Shown here piece after piece: positions 11,292-30,620 of a DNA stretch of 30,620 bases. Numbering within the stretch: position 1 is the stretch's first letter; every line of letters starts with the position of its first letter. The notes under the pieces are model-generated. The model made no database searches. It saw only the letters and a program-made list of their open reading frames with translations, and was not told the DNA's origin. Source of the DNA: Candidatus Helarchaeota archaeon (GTDB lineage Archaea > Asgardarchaeota > Lokiarchaeia > Helarchaeales > HEL-GB-A); NCBI GenBank assembly GCA_013375405.1, contig JABXJU010000027.1, positions 1 through 30,620 on the forward strand. Direction: 5' to 3'. A program made the position numbers and the translations under genes.

Positions 11292-12761
11292 TTACCCTTT
11301 GGTTACACCAATGGGTTTTAATCGGACGACGAGCGTGGCAATTCCGAGGTCATGGCTCACTTTAGCAACGGAATGGATGTCCTTATAGGCACCCGGGGCT
11401 TCTTCGCTCAGAACTCGTTTTGAGGCTGCTTTGACAAAGGTCCCCTGCGATTCAAGTTCTTTCTTGACGGTATCACCCCAATACTTTTTTAAAGCAGCAT
11501 GTCTAGAAAGGAAACGCCCCGCTCCATGGGCCGTACTACCAAATGAGAGCTCCATTGAACGTTCTGTACCAATTAACAGATAGGAGGCAGTTCCCATTGA
11601 GCCCGGGAGGAGTACTGGTTGTCCAATATTTTTATAATCGGCAGGAAGGACTTTGTGATTGGGGGGAAAGGCGCGTGTCGCACCTTTTCGATGCACACAA
11701 ACTTTTCTAGACTTTCCCTCAATATTATGTTCTTCGATTTTTGCCATATTATGCGCAACATCATAGATAAGGTGCAAATCTAAATCTTCTGCCGATGTTT
11801 TTAAGGTGTGTTCAAAAGATTCTCTTATCCAATGCATGATGAGTTGACGGTTGCACCATGCAAAATTTGCCGCCGCCGCCATTGCCTGTAAATAGTCTTG
11901 TCCCTCTCTGCTTGAAATGGGAACACACGCGAGTTCTCGATCTGGAACCCTAATATTATACTTTCGTATTGCATGTTCCATGGTTCTCAAGTAATCCGAG
12001 CAGACTTGATGCCCGAACCCGCGACTACCCGTATGAATCATAACTGTAACTTGGCCTTCCTCAAAGATCCCCATTTTTTTTGCTACCTCCTGATTAAAAA
12101 TTTTATCTACATATTGAATTTCTAAGAAATGGTTTCCAGATCCTAAACTCCCTATTTGAGATTTTCCGCGTTCTTTCGCTCGTTGGGATACTTTTGCAGG
12201 ATTGGCATTTGGCATGCAACCCCGTTCTTCTGCGTGCTGTAAATCTTCATCCCATCCGTATCCATTTTCTACGCCCCATCCCGCTCCATTTATGAGCGCT
12301 TTATTCAATTCCGGGATGGAAACTCGAATCTTACCTTTAGATCCTAAACCGGATGGAACGTTACTAAAAAAACTATTGAGCAAGGATTGTATATGTGGCA
12401 GAATATCCTTTTTATTAAGCGATGTCCGAAGTAGTCGAACTCCACAATTGATATCGTAACCCACACCACCAGGTGAAATCACCCCTGTTTCGATGTCGGT
12501 TGCAGCAACTCCTCCAATAGGAAAACCATATCCTTGATGTGCATCTGGCAATCCGACAGCCCATTTAAGGATACCCGGCAAAAAAGTTATTCCAATTAAT
12601 TGCGAAAACGTCCGATCTTTCCGCATTTTATTAACTAAATCTTGGCTAGCGTATAACCGCGCCGGAACCCGCATTCCGGGTTTATACGTCGCAGGAATTT
12701 CCCATTCTAAATTTGAAATCTTGTTTAGCATTTCATCTGACATCAAACCACCACAATTCAT
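11292..12761 (-). CDS. rtcB: RNA-splicing ligase RtcB
   Basis: 489 residues, typical archaeal size without intein. RtcB joins 2',3'-cyclic phosphate and 5'-OH RNA ends after tRNA endonuclease cleavage, using Mn2+ and GTP. All key sites are present: GYDINCGVR (metal Cys), GSGNHFLE (His), HTGSRGFGHQ (His), DVAHNMAKIEEHN (His) and VHRKGATRAFPP with the His that carries GMP. The C-terminus also shows GSMGTASYLL. An alternative ATG lies at 12743 (MSDEM). The archease gene is 1.5 kb away on the same strand and an intron-rich tRNA-Ser gene is next to that, a coherent splicing neighbourhood. Confidence 0.97.
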   Translation of the reverse strand: MNCGGLMSDEMLNKISNLEWEIPATYKPGMRVPARLYASQDLVNKMRKDRTFSQLIGITFLPGILKWAVGLPDAHQGYGFPIGGVAATDIETGVISPGGVGYDINCGVRLLRTSLNKKDILPHIQSLLNSFFSNVPSGLGSKGKIRVSIPELNKALINGAGWGVENGYGWDEDLQHAEERGCMPNANPAKVSQRAKERGKSQIGSLGSGNHFLEIQYVDKIFNQEVAKKMGIFEEGQVTVMIHTGSRGFGHQVCSDYLRTMEHAIRKYNIRVPDRELACVPISSREGQDYLQAMAAAANFAWCNRQLIMHWIRESFEHTLKTSAEDLDLHLIYDVAHNMAKIEEHNIEGKSRKVCVHRKGATRAFPPNHKVLPADYKNIGQPVLLPGSMGTASYLLIGTERSMELSFGSTAHGAGRFLSRHAALKKYWGDTVKKELESQGTFVKAASKRVLSEEAPGAYKDIHSVAKVSHDLGIATLVVRLKPIGVTKG

Positions 12762-14908: not shown

Positions 14909-14928
14909 TTTTTCTTTCTTTCTTTTTT
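14909..14928 (+). terminator. Oligo-T terminator of tRNA-Ser
   Basis: A T-rich tract (T-runs broken by single C) starts two bases after the discriminator base. Confidence 0.5.
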
Positions 14929-15886
14929 ATGACTGTTTATTATAATCTTCTATTAGTAATTCCCCTAAATAATGAAACGCTTCATCTATATTTTCAGATG
15001 TCTTCGCAGAAATCTCATAGTAGGGCATGTTTAATTTAGCAGCTAATTTTTTACCTTCGTCACGAGTAACTTGTCGATGTTCTACTAAATCAATTTTATT
15101 TGCACATAAAATAGAAGGAATTTTTGAAGTAACGAAGGAATTCAGTTCTTCAATCCATGTTTGGACATTTTTAAACGAGAGCGGTCGGGTTACATCGTAC
15201 AAAATCAAGCAGCCCTGAGCTCCCCCATAATATATTCGACGCATATCCTTCCAGAATGTTTGGCCGGCAATATCCCAAATCTGAAAATTAACTAAATCTT
15301 TCCCAATCCAATACTCATTTTTAACAATACCCACTCCAATCGTGGGTTTATACTCCGATTCAAATCTGGAATGGGCAAATTGGACCGTCGTCGTCGTCTT
15401 CCCGACCCCTACATCCCCAATAATCACAATCTTAAATACAAATTCTTTCCTTGGTGTGATTTCCTCCTTAACCTTTGTCTCAGATTTTGGAACATCAGGC
15501 GACACAAATTTTCTTTTCAGAATTGTCTCAATTTTATTCGCAACATACACACTATAAGCGGTTAATACTTGTTTATTCGCAGTCTCATCACAAATTGTAA
15601 TCAGAACTACGTCTGGATCGACTTGACGAAACACAAATCCCTTCCCGGGCGTGGAGATTTGTTGCACACTCTTCCGGAAATACCCCGTTTCAAAATCGAT
15701 ACGAATAATATCTGAAATATAACTAATTAAAGTGGTTAGTCCTCCAATTTCCTGTTCATTGAATCCTGGACGTATAATTGACGTAACAATTGATCCATCC
15801 CGCTTTACAATGAACACCGCCTCCGACCCACTGGTCGCTGCCAGATAATTCTTTAATAACATATTCAACGGGCCCAATTCTGCCAT
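14927..15886 (-). CDS. Roadblock/LC7-small GTPase fusion protein (Rab/Ras-like)
   Basis: 319 residues. Residues ~1-110 form a Roadblock/LC7 domain (EAVFIVKRDGSIVTSI strand pair, then VLITICDETAN). A charged linker (~127-147) leads to a complete Ras-superfamily GTPase: G1 GDVGVGKT at 157-164, G2 Thr in YKPTIG, G3 DIAGQ with the catalytic Gln, G4 NKID, G5 SAK. The G domain resembles Rab/Ras. There is no C-terminal prenylation Cys. In bacteria (MglB) and eukaryotes Roadblock proteins act on small GTPases in trans, so the fusion suggests self-regulation or dimerisation; that is inference. GAGGAACG precedes the ATG. Confidence 0.92.
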   Translation of the reverse strand: MAELGPLNMLLKNYLAATSGSEAVFIVKRDGSIVTSIIRPGFNEQEIGGLTTLISYISDIIRIDFETGYFRKSVQQISTPGKGFVFRQVDPDVVLITICDETANKQVLTAYSVYVANKIETILKRKFVSPDVPKSETKVKEEITPRKEFVFKIVIIGDVGVGKTTTTVQFAHSRFESEYKPTIGVGIVKNEYWIGKDLVNFQIWDIAGQTFWKDMRRIYYGGAQGCLILYDVTRPLSFKNVQTWIEELNSFVTSKIPSILCANKIDLVEHRQVTRDEGKKLAAKLNMPYYEISAKTSENIDEAFHYLGELLIEDYNKQS

Positions 15887-19934: not shown

Positions 19935-20504
19935 ATGTCTTTAAGTCTGGGAGAACCAAAAGAAATTCGGATGATTGTATTCTCTGCATTGCTTACGGCA
20001 TTACACGAAGTTATGGGACGAGATGGTAAAAATTCAGTCCTTCGATTTGCCGGCCTTGACGAATACATCAACCGAGAGATACCACCACCCTCTATACACC
20101 GATCAATTTCCTTTAAAACATTCAAATCATTAATTATTTCCATGCATGATTTACTTGGACATGGCACAGATGCCATTTTATATGAATCAGGCCGAAAATT
20201 CGCTATTTATCTCACACCCTTCGGTTATTCTTTACGAGAAGTAGTTGAGAAATTAGAAAAGTGGATTGGCGGCACGTGGACCGTAATGAAAGATGATGAT
20301 AAGGGCATTGTCCAAATTAAGAATAATCCTGTTTGTAAGGGGATGGTTTCAGATAAACCAACCTGTCATGTGGTTAGTGGTGCCCTGGCAAAGATTAAGG
20401 AAGAATCGACAGGCAAACATTACCTCGTTAAAGAAGTTTTATGTGAGTCCAAGGGAGATTCTCACTGCGAGTTTTATATTGAAAAAATAGATGAGGCGAG
20501 TTGA
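19935..20504 (+). CDS. V4R-domain protein (Bet3/TRAPP superfamily)
   Basis: 189 residues. The C-terminal two thirds match the V4R (4-vinyl reductase) fold, whose signature is the Cys-rich end: NPVCKG, then PTCHVVSGALA, then TGKHYLVKEVLCESKGDSHCEFYIE. The N-terminal helices (ALLTALHEVMGRDG, then FKTFKSLIISMHDLLGHG) fit the Bet3-like helical part. V4R proteins are relatives of eukaryotic TRAPP subunits. The strong ribosome site GAGGGTGAT at 19920-19928 fixes the ATG. The reading frame overlaps the following Rab-like GTPase gene by 14 bases, so the pair is translationally coupled. Confidence 0.88.
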   Translation: MSLSLGEPKEIRMIVFSALLTALHEVMGRDGKNSVLRFAGLDEYINREIPPPSIHRSISFKTFKSLIISMHDLLGHGTDAILYESGRKFAIYLTPFGYSLREVVEKLEKWIGGTWTVMKDDDKGIVQIKNNPVCKGMVSDKPTCHVVSGALAKIKEESTGKHYLVKEVLCESKGDSHCEFYIEKIDEAS

Positions 20505-21024
20505 ATTGGTACCCGAACGAAAATTTGTCTTTAAAATTGTTGTTATTGGCGATGGAGCTGTTGGGAAAACTTCCCTAATTGCAAGATTTGCGGAAAAAAC
20601 ATTTCAAGCTGAATATAAGCCAACGCTGGGCACAAATATCGTCATAAAAGAATTAAAACTTGAGAATAATCAGATTAAACTCCTGCTCTGGGATATTGCG
20701 GGGCAAGCCAAGTGGCGCGATGTTCGCCATCTTTATTATCGTGGCGCCCAAGGATGTATTCTTGTATTTGATGTGACCCGCCCTGGTACTTTCGAATCCA
20801 TTCCAGCATGGTATAAAGATCTCATTAAGTTTAGTGGTGATATACCTCGTGTTCTTCTAGCGAATAAAGTAGATTTGACTGATATTCGCAAGATTGCAAA
20901 AGAACAAGCTCAATCCACGGCAGATGAACTCGAAGCATCATATTTCGAAACGTCTGCAAAGGATGGAACACAGGTAAATGATGCATTCGAAAAAATCTCT
21001 GGTTTAATTCTGCAAAAAGCGTAA
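20491..21024 (+). CDS. Rab/Ras-like small GTPase
   Basis: 177 residues, a single G domain. G1 is GDGAVGKT at 20-27, the switch I Thr lies in YKPTLGT, G3 is WDIAGQ with Gln, G4 is NKVD and G5 is SAKDG. WRDVRHLYYRGAQG is a Rab-type switch II. There is no C-terminal Cys, so membrane attachment would need another route. It starts inside the end of the V4R gene; the two proteins are likely partners, possibly GTPase and regulator. Confidence 0.93.
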   Translation: MRRVELVPERKFVFKIVVIGDGAVGKTSLIARFAEKTFQAEYKPTLGTNIVIKELKLENNQIKLLLWDIAGQAKWRDVRHLYYRGAQGCILVFDVTRPGTFESIPAWYKDLIKFSGDIPRVLLANKVDLTDIRKIAKEQAQSTADELEASYFETSAKDGTQVNDAFEKISGLILQKA

Positions 21025-22832: not shown

Positions 22833-23642
22833 ATGAAAATTACTATCCTTGAGCAAAGAGACAATTACGTAAAGATGATTGTAGAAGGTATTGATCCTTC
22901 TATTGCTAATTCATTACGAAGAGTCATGATTGCCGAAGTCCCATGTCTTGCTATTGAAGATGTTTGGATTGTTGAAAATGATGGTCCTTTGTATGATGAA
23001 ATTATCGGTCATCGGTTAGGGTTAATCCCTCTGAAGACTGATCTAGATACTTATATTCTCCCGAGTTTATGTGGGTGCAAAGGCGAAGGCTGTCCACAGT
23101 GTCAAGTTACGTTTACACTTAATAAGGAAGCTGTCGATGGCCCACTTATCGTGTATGCGGAAGATCTTGAACCAGAGGACCCTGTTATAACGCCGGTTAA
23201 TCCTAAGGTCCCAATTGTTGAGCTAGTGAAAGGGCAAAAAATAGTTCTTGAAGCGTATGGAAAACTTGGGATTGGGGAAGAACATTCAAAATGGCAACCG
23301 GTTGCCACAGTTGCTTATAAATATTTGCCGTTAATTAAAATAGATTATGAAACATGTGAAAAATGCGAAAAATGTGTTGAGGCATGTCCTCGCAATATTA
23401 TCTCCTTTAAAAATGATCGTATTCAAATTTCAGATGCAATGACATGCAACTTTTGCAAAGCATGTGAAGACGTATGTGAGACTGAGCCTGAAAAAGCAAT
23501 TCAAGTGAATTGGGATTCCACTAAGTTTATCTTCACGATTGAATCAAGTGGTGCATTGGCCGCCGAAAAAGTTGTTACCGAAGCAATTAAAATCTTAAAA
23601 GATAAAATTAAAAACTTTTTAGAAATGTTGGAAACGTTATAG
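22833..23642 (+). CDS. rpo3: RNA polymerase subunit Rpo3 (D) with two 4Fe-4S motifs
   Basis: 269 residues. The alpha-like dimerisation part has IANSLRRVMIAEVPCLAIEDV and HRLGLIPL. A zinc-type knot is C80-x-C82-x4-C87-x2-C90. The inserted ferredoxin domain has both clusters complete: C175-x2-C178-x2-C181-x3-C185 and C205-x2-C208-x2-C211-x3-C215. The C-terminal coil (AAEKVVTEAIKILKDKI) pairs with Rpo11. The Fe-S clusters in archaeal Rpo3 are thought to stabilise assembly with Rpo11. Confidence 0.97.
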   Translation: MKITILEQRDNYVKMIVEGIDPSIANSLRRVMIAEVPCLAIEDVWIVENDGPLYDEIIGHRLGLIPLKTDLDTYILPSLCGCKGEGCPQCQVTFTLNKEAVDGPLIVYAEDLEPEDPVITPVNPKVPIVELVKGQKIVLEAYGKLGIGEEHSKWQPVATVAYKYLPLIKIDYETCEKCEKCVEACPRNIISFKNDRIQISDAMTCNFCKACEDVCETEPEKAIQVNWDSTKFIFTIESSGALAAEKVVTEAIKILKDKIKNFLEMLETL

Positions 23643-27964: not shown

Positions 27965-28888
27965 ATGTCTGAGGAAACTCTTAAAATCATGGTTGTAGGA
28001 TTAGAAAACGTAGGGAAAACCTCGATCCTACTTACGATGGAGAAAAAATACAGTTTATTAGGTGCTCTCACTCCGACTAAGGGCATTGAAAGATCTATAT
28101 TCAAAATATTTGGTTATAAAGTTTCAGCATGGGATTTGGGGGGGCAAGAAGCATATCGAAAAGGATATTTACAAAAAGATATATTTTTTGAGGAAACTGA
28201 CTTATTTTTATATTGTGTTGATGTAAAAGACCCAAAAAATTATGATTTAGCTTTAGATTATTACCAAAAAATTATTGAAATTTTTAATAAATTAAATATT
28301 GAACCTCCGATTATCATTTTTCTACATAAAGTAGACCCTGACATTAAAAACACTCCTGAAATTCGCCAAAATATTAAAATACTTAAGGATATGTTTCAAG
28401 AAGGTTCAGGTAATCGTCAGATCGAATTTTTTGAAACATCTATATTTGATGAATGGTCATTAATCAAAGCCTTTTCAAGCGGGTTAACTCACCTATCTAC
28501 AAAAGCTGAAATTCTCTCCCATCATTTGGCTGATTTTGCGAAGAAAATATTAGCAAATGCTGTTATATTATTGAATCAAAACGGCTACTTAATAGGAGAA
28601 TACGCGAGTAATGAATTAAGTGCTTTCTTGTGTCAAAGTATTTCCACCCAATCACTTTACATGTATCTAGTCATGAAAGAAAGAGATATTAAACCGGAAA
28701 AAATCACAGTCACTGTTGAGAATGGATTCATAATTTTCCGTGGAGTTACTATCAAAGATGAACAATTATTCATCATTTTTTATTCTAAAGTCTCTCGAAC
28801 ACTTGAATTATTTAATGAATTTTTCCCCAAATTCGCAGAACAGGCACAAGATATTTTTAAATTCTTTTTTACTGAAAAATCATCATAA
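27965..28888 (+). CDS. Rag/Gtr-like GTPase with C-terminal roadblock-like domain
   Basis: 307 residues. G1 is GLENVGKT (12-19), switch I Thr lies in TPTKGIE, G3 is WDLGGQE, and G4 is HKVD instead of NKxD. The G5 region ETSIFDEWSLIKAFSSGL closely resembles eukaryotic RagA (TSIWDETLYKAWSS). The HK-x-D variant and this G5 are specific to Rag/Gtr GTPases. Residues ~195-300 (VILLNQNGYLIGEY...) fit a roadblock/longin-type C-terminal domain, again as in Rags. In eukaryotes Rags signal amino-acid supply to TORC1; the archaeal role is unknown. It stands between ndk and aIF5B. Confidence 0.88.
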   Translation: MSEETLKIMVVGLENVGKTSILLTMEKKYSLLGALTPTKGIERSIFKIFGYKVSAWDLGGQEAYRKGYLQKDIFFEETDLFLYCVDVKDPKNYDLALDYYQKIIEIFNKLNIEPPIIIFLHKVDPDIKNTPEIRQNIKILKDMFQEGSGNRQIEFFETSIFDEWSLIKAFSSGLTHLSTKAEILSHHLADFAKKILANAVILLNQNGYLIGEYASNELSAFLCQSISTQSLYMYLVMKERDIKPEKITVTVENGFIIFRGVTIKDEQLFIIFYSKVSRTLELFNEFFPKFAEQAQDIFKFFFTEKSS

Positions 28889-28910: not shown

Positions 28911-28953
28911 AATTATCCTTTTCTTATTTACAGAGTATTCAAGGTGTGTGAAA

Positions 28954-30620
28954 ATGTCAATCCGTCAACCTATAGTATCGGTCCTCGGACATATAGATCA
29001 CGGAATGGACTATTGTTCTCAATAGTTCACGGTAAGACCTCTATATTGGACCGAATAAGAGGTACTGGGGTGCAAAAACGAGAAGCTGCCGGCATTACGC
29101 AGCATATCGGTGCTAGTTTTCTACCAATTGAAACAATAATTGACATTTGCGGCCCTTTGATCCAAAAAACTGGCATTCAACTCCAAAAGATAAACGGACT
29201 TCTTGTTATTGATACTCCCGGGCATTCAGCTTTCATAAATTTACGACGCCGTGGAGGCGCAGTTTCGGATATAGCAGTATTGGTAATAGATATTAATGAG
29301 GGATGCCTAGAGCAGACCTTTGAATCATTAAAGATTCTAAAAGAGCGAAAAACTCCTTTTTTAATTGCGGCAAATAAGATTGATCGGGTTCCCGGATGGA
29401 AATTCCATGATCCTTCTTTTCTTGAATCCTTTAAAAAGCAAGTACCTTCCGTCCAAACAGAGTTAGATAATAGAATTTATGAGATAATGGGGACATTGAC
29501 GGAAGAAAGACTTTTAGCTGACCGATTCGACCGAGTTGCTGACTTTACGCAAACAATTGCAATCGTTCCAACGAGCGCAAAGACAGGCGAAGGAATCCCA
29601 GAATTATTAATGGTCCTTGCAGGATTAACCACCCAGTATTTACAGCAGCGCTTAAAAACGAGTCAAGGCGCTGGAAAAGGAGTCGTATTAGAAGTAAAGG
29701 AAGAACCGGGATTAGGAGTCACCATAGATACCATCCTATATGATGGAGTCTTAAAAAAGGGGGACTCTATTATTGTTGGAGGATTGACGAAATCCATTCA
29801 GACAAAAATTAGGGCTTTACTCCTCCCAAAACCCTTGGATGAAATTAGGGACCCGCGTGAAAAATTTTCATCAATTCAAAAAGTTTCAGCAGCGGCTGGA
29901 ATAAAAATCGCAGCCCCCAATCTTGAAGATGCCGTTGCTGGTGGTCCAGTTCTAGTTGTAAATACTCCCCAAGAACAAGAAGAAGCCATTGCGACTATTA
30001 AATCTGAGATCCAAAGCATTCGTATTGATACGGATTCTTCAGGAATAATTTTAAAGGCCGATACGCTTGGATCCTTGGAAGCACTGATCGATTTCCTCAA
30101 GGAGGAAAAAGTTCAGATTAGAAAAGCAGATGTGGGATCGATTTCAAAAAGAGATATTACCGAGGCTACAATTGTAAAGGAAACTGATCCGCTTTCCGCC
30201 GTGATTCTTGCTTTTCATACAAAAATCTTACCCGATGCAAAAGAAGAAGCGTTTAACCAAGAGATATTAATATTTGAAAATGATGTAATTTACCGGTTAA
30301 TTGAGGAATATCTCGACTGGGTTAAGGAAAAGGAAGACGAATTTAAAACTATCGAATACGATAAAGTCAAGCACCCTAGCAAGATACTTTTTCTTCCTCA
30401 ATATATTTTCCGTCGATCAGATCCTGCAGTAATAGGCATTCGGGTCTTAGGGGGAACGATCCGCCCAAAAACTCAATTGATTAATAAAAATGGTAAAATT
30501 ATTGGAGTAATTCGCCAAATTCAAGATAAGAGTGAAACCATAGCCCGAGCTACGAAAAATCAAGAGGTTGCCATCTCCATCGCGGGGGGTGTTGTCGGCA
30601 GAAACATCAAGGAAACAAAA
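28954..30620 (+). CDS. infB: Translation initiation factor aIF5B, reading frame broken by a 29-nt insert; 3' end outside window
   Basis: aIF5B is the GTPase that joins ribosomal subunits at initiation. From ATG 28954 the frame reads MSIRQPIVSVLGHIDHG, then ends at TAG 29023. Deleting 29 bases (29004-29032) joins DHG to KTSILDRIRGTGVQKREAAG and gives a normal protein: G1 GHIDHGKT, the switch I ITQHIGA, G3 DTPGH, G4 NKID, domain II, and so on, open for 530 codons to the window end. The insert falls exactly in the P-loop, where no residue change is tolerated. Either the sequence is wrong, or the insert is spliced out or skipped by ribosomes; see findings. Confidence 0.9.
28998..29032 (+). repeat. 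29-nt insert with hairpin, flanked by TCACGG direct repeats
   Basis: TCACGG at 28998-29003 recurs at 29027-29032, so the insert's ends are ambiguous within six bases. Between them a 9-bp stem (29007-29015 with 29020-29028, one G-U pair) closes a TTCT loop. It adds a frame change (29 is not a multiple of 3) and a TAG. Confidence 0.85.

Follow-up and report, generated by a model that had tools for sequence, protein, structure and literature searches.

Tiny introns interrupt the cbf5 pre-mRNA of Crenarchaeota. They are 16-44 nt long, lie in structures like the bulge-helix-bulge (BHB) whose motif is often relaxed, and are cleaved between the second and third bulge base (PMC2738675). The available portions of that article tie relaxed motifs to hetero-oligomeric EndA and give cbf5, as of 2009, as the sole archaeal protein-coding gene with confirmed splicing, others being predicted (PMC2738675). 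Archaeal tRNA introns, by the accessible part of a second article, have either a canonical BHB (two 3-nt bulges and a 4-bp helix) or a relaxed one (PMC6379350).

We describe a 29-nt insert that interrupts the P-loop of aIF5B, the last gene of a window (the whole stretch of DNA analysed, 30,620 nt) in a Helarchaeota-like Asgard contig. Positions 29006-29034 are probably a tiny relaxed-BHB pre-mRNA intron, cut by the splicing endonuclease and joined by RtcB; we infer cutting and joining in this organism from the geometry of the site, the reading frame regained on removal and comparable introns in other archaea. The insert looks like a cbf5-type archaeal mRNA intron, one of a set of mini-introns that seems to recur in translation GTPases. 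As far as the cited text on cbf5 goes, it is alike in size, in its BHB-like relaxed motif and in proposed cut position; it differs in gene (aIF5B), host (Asgard) and site (P-loop), and in being known from sequence alone. With archaeal tRNA introns it would share the bulge and helix sizes outlined in the portions cited. The strand order is alike as well; unlike theirs, its host is an mRNA, in which codons constrain the exon side. In a literature search of open papers we recognised no article dealing with introns of aIF5B or of Asgard mRNAs.

The exon 1 frame of aIF5B reads MSIRQPIVSVLGHIDHG and then meets an in-frame TAG. The insert contains the hairpin GGACTATTG / TTCT / CAATAGTTC. The gene start is present; P-loop break, TAG and hairpin with its UUCU loop are as a preliminary description of this DNA had reported them, and its central observation holds: deleting 29 nt restores GHIDHGKTS, the only length that works among the 20-59 tested, and leaves 528 open codons up to the window end. 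The frame that follows the break is open upstream as far as a GTG at 28944, which accounts for a 559-aa database protein with its P-loop broken or missing. Rfam and ARAGORN gave no match anywhere in the window.

Because GGA and GGT both encode glycine, the deletion can be placed in nine equivalent registers. The preliminary description had noted a 6-bp direct repeat; TCACGG is indeed present twice, but it alone accounts for seven registers, and 29006-29034 falls beyond those seven. The true repeat is also longer: ATAGATCACGG at 28993-29003 and ATAGTTCACGG at 29022-29032 are identical at 10/11 bases with a spacing of 29, the 3′ end of the intron thus duplicating the end of exon 1. This copy yields both matching codons of the kind seen in bypassing and a weakened central helix. 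A BHB does not predict such a repeat, which might stem from a duplication when the intron arose. Coordinates are given in Table 1.

Table 1. Features of the window, with intron-like inserts in sister translation GTPases (caret, point of interruption or cut)
Feature	Position or locus	Strand	Basis
RtcB RNA ligase, candidate exon ligase	11292-12761	-	PF01139, E 1.7e-174
aIF5B exon 1, MSIRQPIVSVLGHIDHG plus first base of Lys codon	28954-29005	+	Restored frame; third-position differences to G081
Proposed intron, 29 nt, cut GGA A^...^AG ACC, phase 1 of Lys codon	29006-29034	+	Canonical BHB geometry, in this register alone of the nine
aIF5B exon 2, runs off window	29035-30620	+	Open frame
Outer exon-exon helix, exon-1 strand (AUAUAGA + UC)	28991-28999	+	Minimum-energy fold
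Central helix, exon side (ACGG)	29000-29003	+	Strict: with 29029-29032, 2/4; minimum-energy fold: with 29030-29033, 3/4
5′ bulge AA^U	29004-29006	+	BHB geometry
Intron hairpin, 29007-29015 with 29020-29028, loop UUCU	29007-29028	+	Fold, shuffles
Central helix, intron side	29029-29033	+	Strict geometry and minimum-energy fold
3′ bulge UA^A	29033-29035	+	BHB geometry
Outer helix, exon-2 strand (GA, two unpaired C, UCUAUAU)	29036-29046	+	Minimum-energy fold
EF-2 inserts	L117, L118 (P-loop); L120 (AH^ID)		
EF-2-like inserts	L111 (P-loop); L110 (AH^ID)		
EF-2 inserts at DTPGHV^DF	L106-L108		
aIF2-gamma P-loop inserts	L112, L114 (two each); L113, L115, L116		
EF-1A insert at DAPGH^KD	L109		

In an archaeal BHB the strands run through the exon helix, the central helix (exon 1 with the intron 3′ end), the 5′ bulge and the intron hairpin, and return through the central helix, the 3′ bulge and the exon helix. 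Locus L010 agrees with this order; the opposite one, with the central helix formed by the intron start and the 3′ exon, was dropped for that reason. The preliminary description had found no canonical BHB at the window site and for that reason leaned away from an intron. In one of the nine registers, 29006-29034, the 9-bp hairpin begins 1 nt past the 5′ cut and stops 6 nt before the 3′ cut, as it does in BHB introns; cuts behind the second bulge base then yield exact exons (GGA AAG ACC). This register, and like inserts in distant archaea, speak against that lean. Its observation that the motif is non-canonical is borne out: under strict geometry only the two middle positions of the central helix pair (C-G and G-C), and each end is an A.G mismatch. 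The unconstrained fold shifts this short helix by one base, to A-U, C-G, G.G and G-C, and sets it between two AA bulges, one towards the exon helix and one towards the hairpin, the outer exon-exon helix having nine pairs and a two-base bulge.

The window hairpin is not due to chance: when the insert was shuffled 200,000 times, 50 shuffles gave an arm of at least 9 pairs at the canonical place. Shuffling the seven non-hairpin bases yields at least two central-helix pairs in 44% of cases; the fold z-score of the site is -1.5, with 15 of 200 shuffles folding equally well; and the central helix is the weakest among the aIF5B carriers scored. The window motif would thus be a relaxed BHB that alone would not convince, and the case draws on relatives.

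The closest database proteins (P0003-P0020, 18 in all, 73-83% identical and mostly Helarchaeota by name where the source names them) all have an unbroken GHIDHGKTS, as does the aIF5B of genome G081. Since all 18 lack it, the insert is young or rare. These absences, the direct repeat at a spacing of 29 and the weak central helix favour a different reading, in which a recent duplication or hairpin-type mutation broke the gene, leaving an unspliced scar or polymorphism while an intact copy elsewhere sustains the cell. We regard this as unlikely. Neither exon appears to decay: among the 53 rows of an aIF5B tree the window branch measures 0.098, against 0.11 and 0.12 for the uninterrupted sisters P0003 and P0004, and 10 of the 13 nucleotide differences to G081 in the first 18 codons fall at third positions. 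Uncorrected pS and pN against G081 are 0.78 and 0.08 over those 18 codons and 0.76 and 0.11 over the next 528, so each side of the insert evolves as coding sequence in its own frame, at least until recently. A second aIF5B match, considering the best five candidates per genome, occurs in only one of 204 matching Asgard genomes (G188; E 1e-100). Two other Asgard genes, moreover, are interrupted at the very same nucleotide.

The preliminary description had proposed a search of related genomes for like inserts. Among genomes with an aIF5B match, 10 of 207 in Asgard and 25 of 159 in Thermoproteota carry intron-like inserts in this gene, 17-36 nt long across both phyla; others lie in EF-2, aIF2-gamma and EF-1A. 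The Asgard set comprised 227 genomes from the phylum of L003's Thorarchaeota genome, 207 of them with an aIF5B match; 75 of the 227 were searched again at a looser cut-off, a re-search that left out three match-less genomes. The screen misses in-frame introns without a stop. A single-protein scan of genome contigs gave four distant loci only.

Four Asgard genomes (G003-G006) carry 30-33 nt at GI^TQHIG, with central helix 4/4, a hairpin of 9-11 pairs and an outer helix of 3-6 pairs. The other six have P-loop or nearby inserts: 30 nt in G115 (central helix 4/4, fitting bulges, interrupted hairpin), 32 nt in G103 (3/4), and 29 nt in G073-G076 (3/4, hairpin 9), where the cut lies two bases beyond the window's nucleotide. 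Window, G115 and G103 share an identical cut nucleotide, behind the first base of the Lys codon. The layout of 1 nt, hairpin and 6 nt recurs in nine of the ten carriers, the exception being G115, whose nearest protein (98% identical) is uninterrupted. An assembly or sequencing artefact would be very improbable: the window insert is known from a single contig, but inserts of similar size sit at the same site in other genomes, one insert is common to the four related genomes G073-G076, and another is common to G004-G006 with diverged loops.

Several Asgard candidates were set aside. In G031 the frame breaks near residue 270 with about one base missing by hand arithmetic, an ordinary frameshift, and seven genes some 33-36 nt longer than the query have a protein insertion and no intron. 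Separately, the Asgard aIF5B protein P0217 has an extra ten residues inserted precisely where GHIDHG meets KTT; the gene caller probably translated an in-frame intron that lacks a stop.

Phage T4 gene 60 and the byp elements of Magnusiomyces undergo programmed bypassing, with a hairpin, a stop in the gap and matching codons. The window insert has all three, and ribosomes leaving the His codon CAC at 28999 for the CAC at 29028 would also read across it, one of the possibilities that the preliminary description had leaned toward. Matching codons are not kept in the relatives checked: read by hand, the landing codon in G073-G076 would be the stop TAA, and G103 has no matching codon pair that continues the protein. 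Carriers' hairpins instead keep BHB offsets, and bypassing predicts neither exon-exon nor exon-intron pairing. We find it scarcely credible here, and return to the intron reading.

For a second phylum, 161 genomes were drawn evenly from that of L001's Bathyarchaeota genome, which we take to be Thermoproteota in GTDB; 159 had an aIF5B match. Inspection of 37 suspect genes gave 25 with introns, nine (eight and L153) dropped because the stop is the gene's natural end, and three that are intein-like. The 25 genomes hold 23 introns at GI^TQHIG and four in the P-loop; L151 (G253) and L152 (G277) have one at each site, of 17-20 nt, all with central helix 4/4. Overall, 22 of the 23 introns at GI^TQHIG have a 4/4 helix, as do three of the four in the P-loop, and most aIF5B introns of the relatives are textbook BHBs. 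In L080 and L094 the uninterrupted hairpin is just 1-2 pairs.

Outer exon-exon pairing of at least 3 at GI^TQHIG was found in 23/23 Thermoproteota carriers versus 1/20 intron-less genes (a hand-picked, non-random set), and in 4/4 Asgard carriers versus 2/27 intron-less Asgard genes; the exon codons thus fit the intron. In an alignment of seven 27-nt introns 94% of cells are paired, against 24-50% when slid. By the alignment these introns covary, one of 500 shuffles reaching their covariation score; two of five measures (both-side pair changes and further pair types) were no higher than in shuffles. Alignments A1 and A3 were left out of covariance modelling because their hairpins were not lined up.

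The three intein-like Thermoproteota genes (L097-L099) have a long open frame before the P-loop break, ending HN^T. L098, the one tested, gave 29.9 bits with PF14890 (intein splicing), below the cut-off of 35.8, and we tentatively call all three probable P-loop inteins. The preliminary description had mentioned inteins at this site and offered an intein-related scar as an option. Its remark finds tentative support in these genes, which share with the window the gene and the insertion motif; an intein, however, acts at the protein level with a long open frame, and the window insert is excluded as one by its 29-nt size and in-frame TAG.

Sister genes were scanned with GTP_EFTU in 18 Asgard and Thermoproteota genomes (17 carriers and G081, a non-random set). 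Among 15 broken GTPase loci inspected, 14 have an intron-like insert, mostly of 29-36 nt (Table 1). The central helix is 4/4 in 12 loci (L106-L114, L116-L118) and 3/4 in L115 and L120; L106, L108, L111 and L116 have a short uninterrupted hairpin of just 0-2 pairs. Gene names rest on G081 references, of which aIF2-gamma and EF-1A pass NCBIfam cut-offs; for the EF-2 reference, incomplete at its stretch end, and for L111, aEF-2 is the top family, below cut-off. G103 has P-loop introns in four translation GTPases. By eye the insert sequences lack obvious similarity, so recent copying between GTPase genes is unsupported. L119 runs off its contig with no intron visible, and gaps of 12-15 nt placed by splice-aware alignment in L110, L111, L116, L120 and L124-L130 were taken as alignment noise and left uncounted. 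Three further Asgard EF-2 matches may have introns, two starting only near the P-loop (G102:C188:20461-22458 and G227:C137:3211-5196) and one only near DTPGH (G161:C118:3599-5383).

In the proposed mechanism the flanking exons of the transcript would pair together and exon 1 with the intron 3′ end, the intron itself forming its 9-bp hairpin. A tRNA-type splicing endonuclease would cleave each bulge behind its second base (AA^U, UA^A), and RtcB would ligate GGA A to AG ACC, restoring GHIDHGKTS. RtcB is encoded in the window, as the preliminary description had read. EndA-family genes were found in 11/11 Asgard genomes (the ten carriers and G081, a set that does not include the window's own genome), two copies in 8/11 and one in G081, G074 and G075; two such genes would fit a hetero-oligomeric enzyme.

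The window also encodes Ras-like and Rag/Gtr1-like small GTPases (14927-15886, 20491-21024 and 27965-28888). Close to them are genes that match ribosomal proteins S4 and S11 and an Rpb3/Rpb11-type RNA polymerase subunit with a 4Fe-4S domain (22833-23642).

A broader proposal, which we hold to be possible though rather doubtful, is that in archaeal translation GTPases the P-loop and nearby codons for GTP binding serve as a common landing site, where mini-introns jump or re-arise between paralogues (aIF5B, EF-2, aIF2-gamma and EF-1A), as in G103, perhaps coupling translation-factor synthesis to splicing capacity. The window intron would then be a young, duplication-born member whose 3′ end copies its exon.

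If the recurrent class is true, it occupies the best-conserved codons that essential translation GTPases have, in both Asgard and Thermoproteota, and genes of this kind can end up with an annotation as truncated or broken. Control of translation would be tied to the tRNA-splicing machinery, and one site with and without an intron in many lineages would offer a natural series for the birth and loss of archaeal introns.
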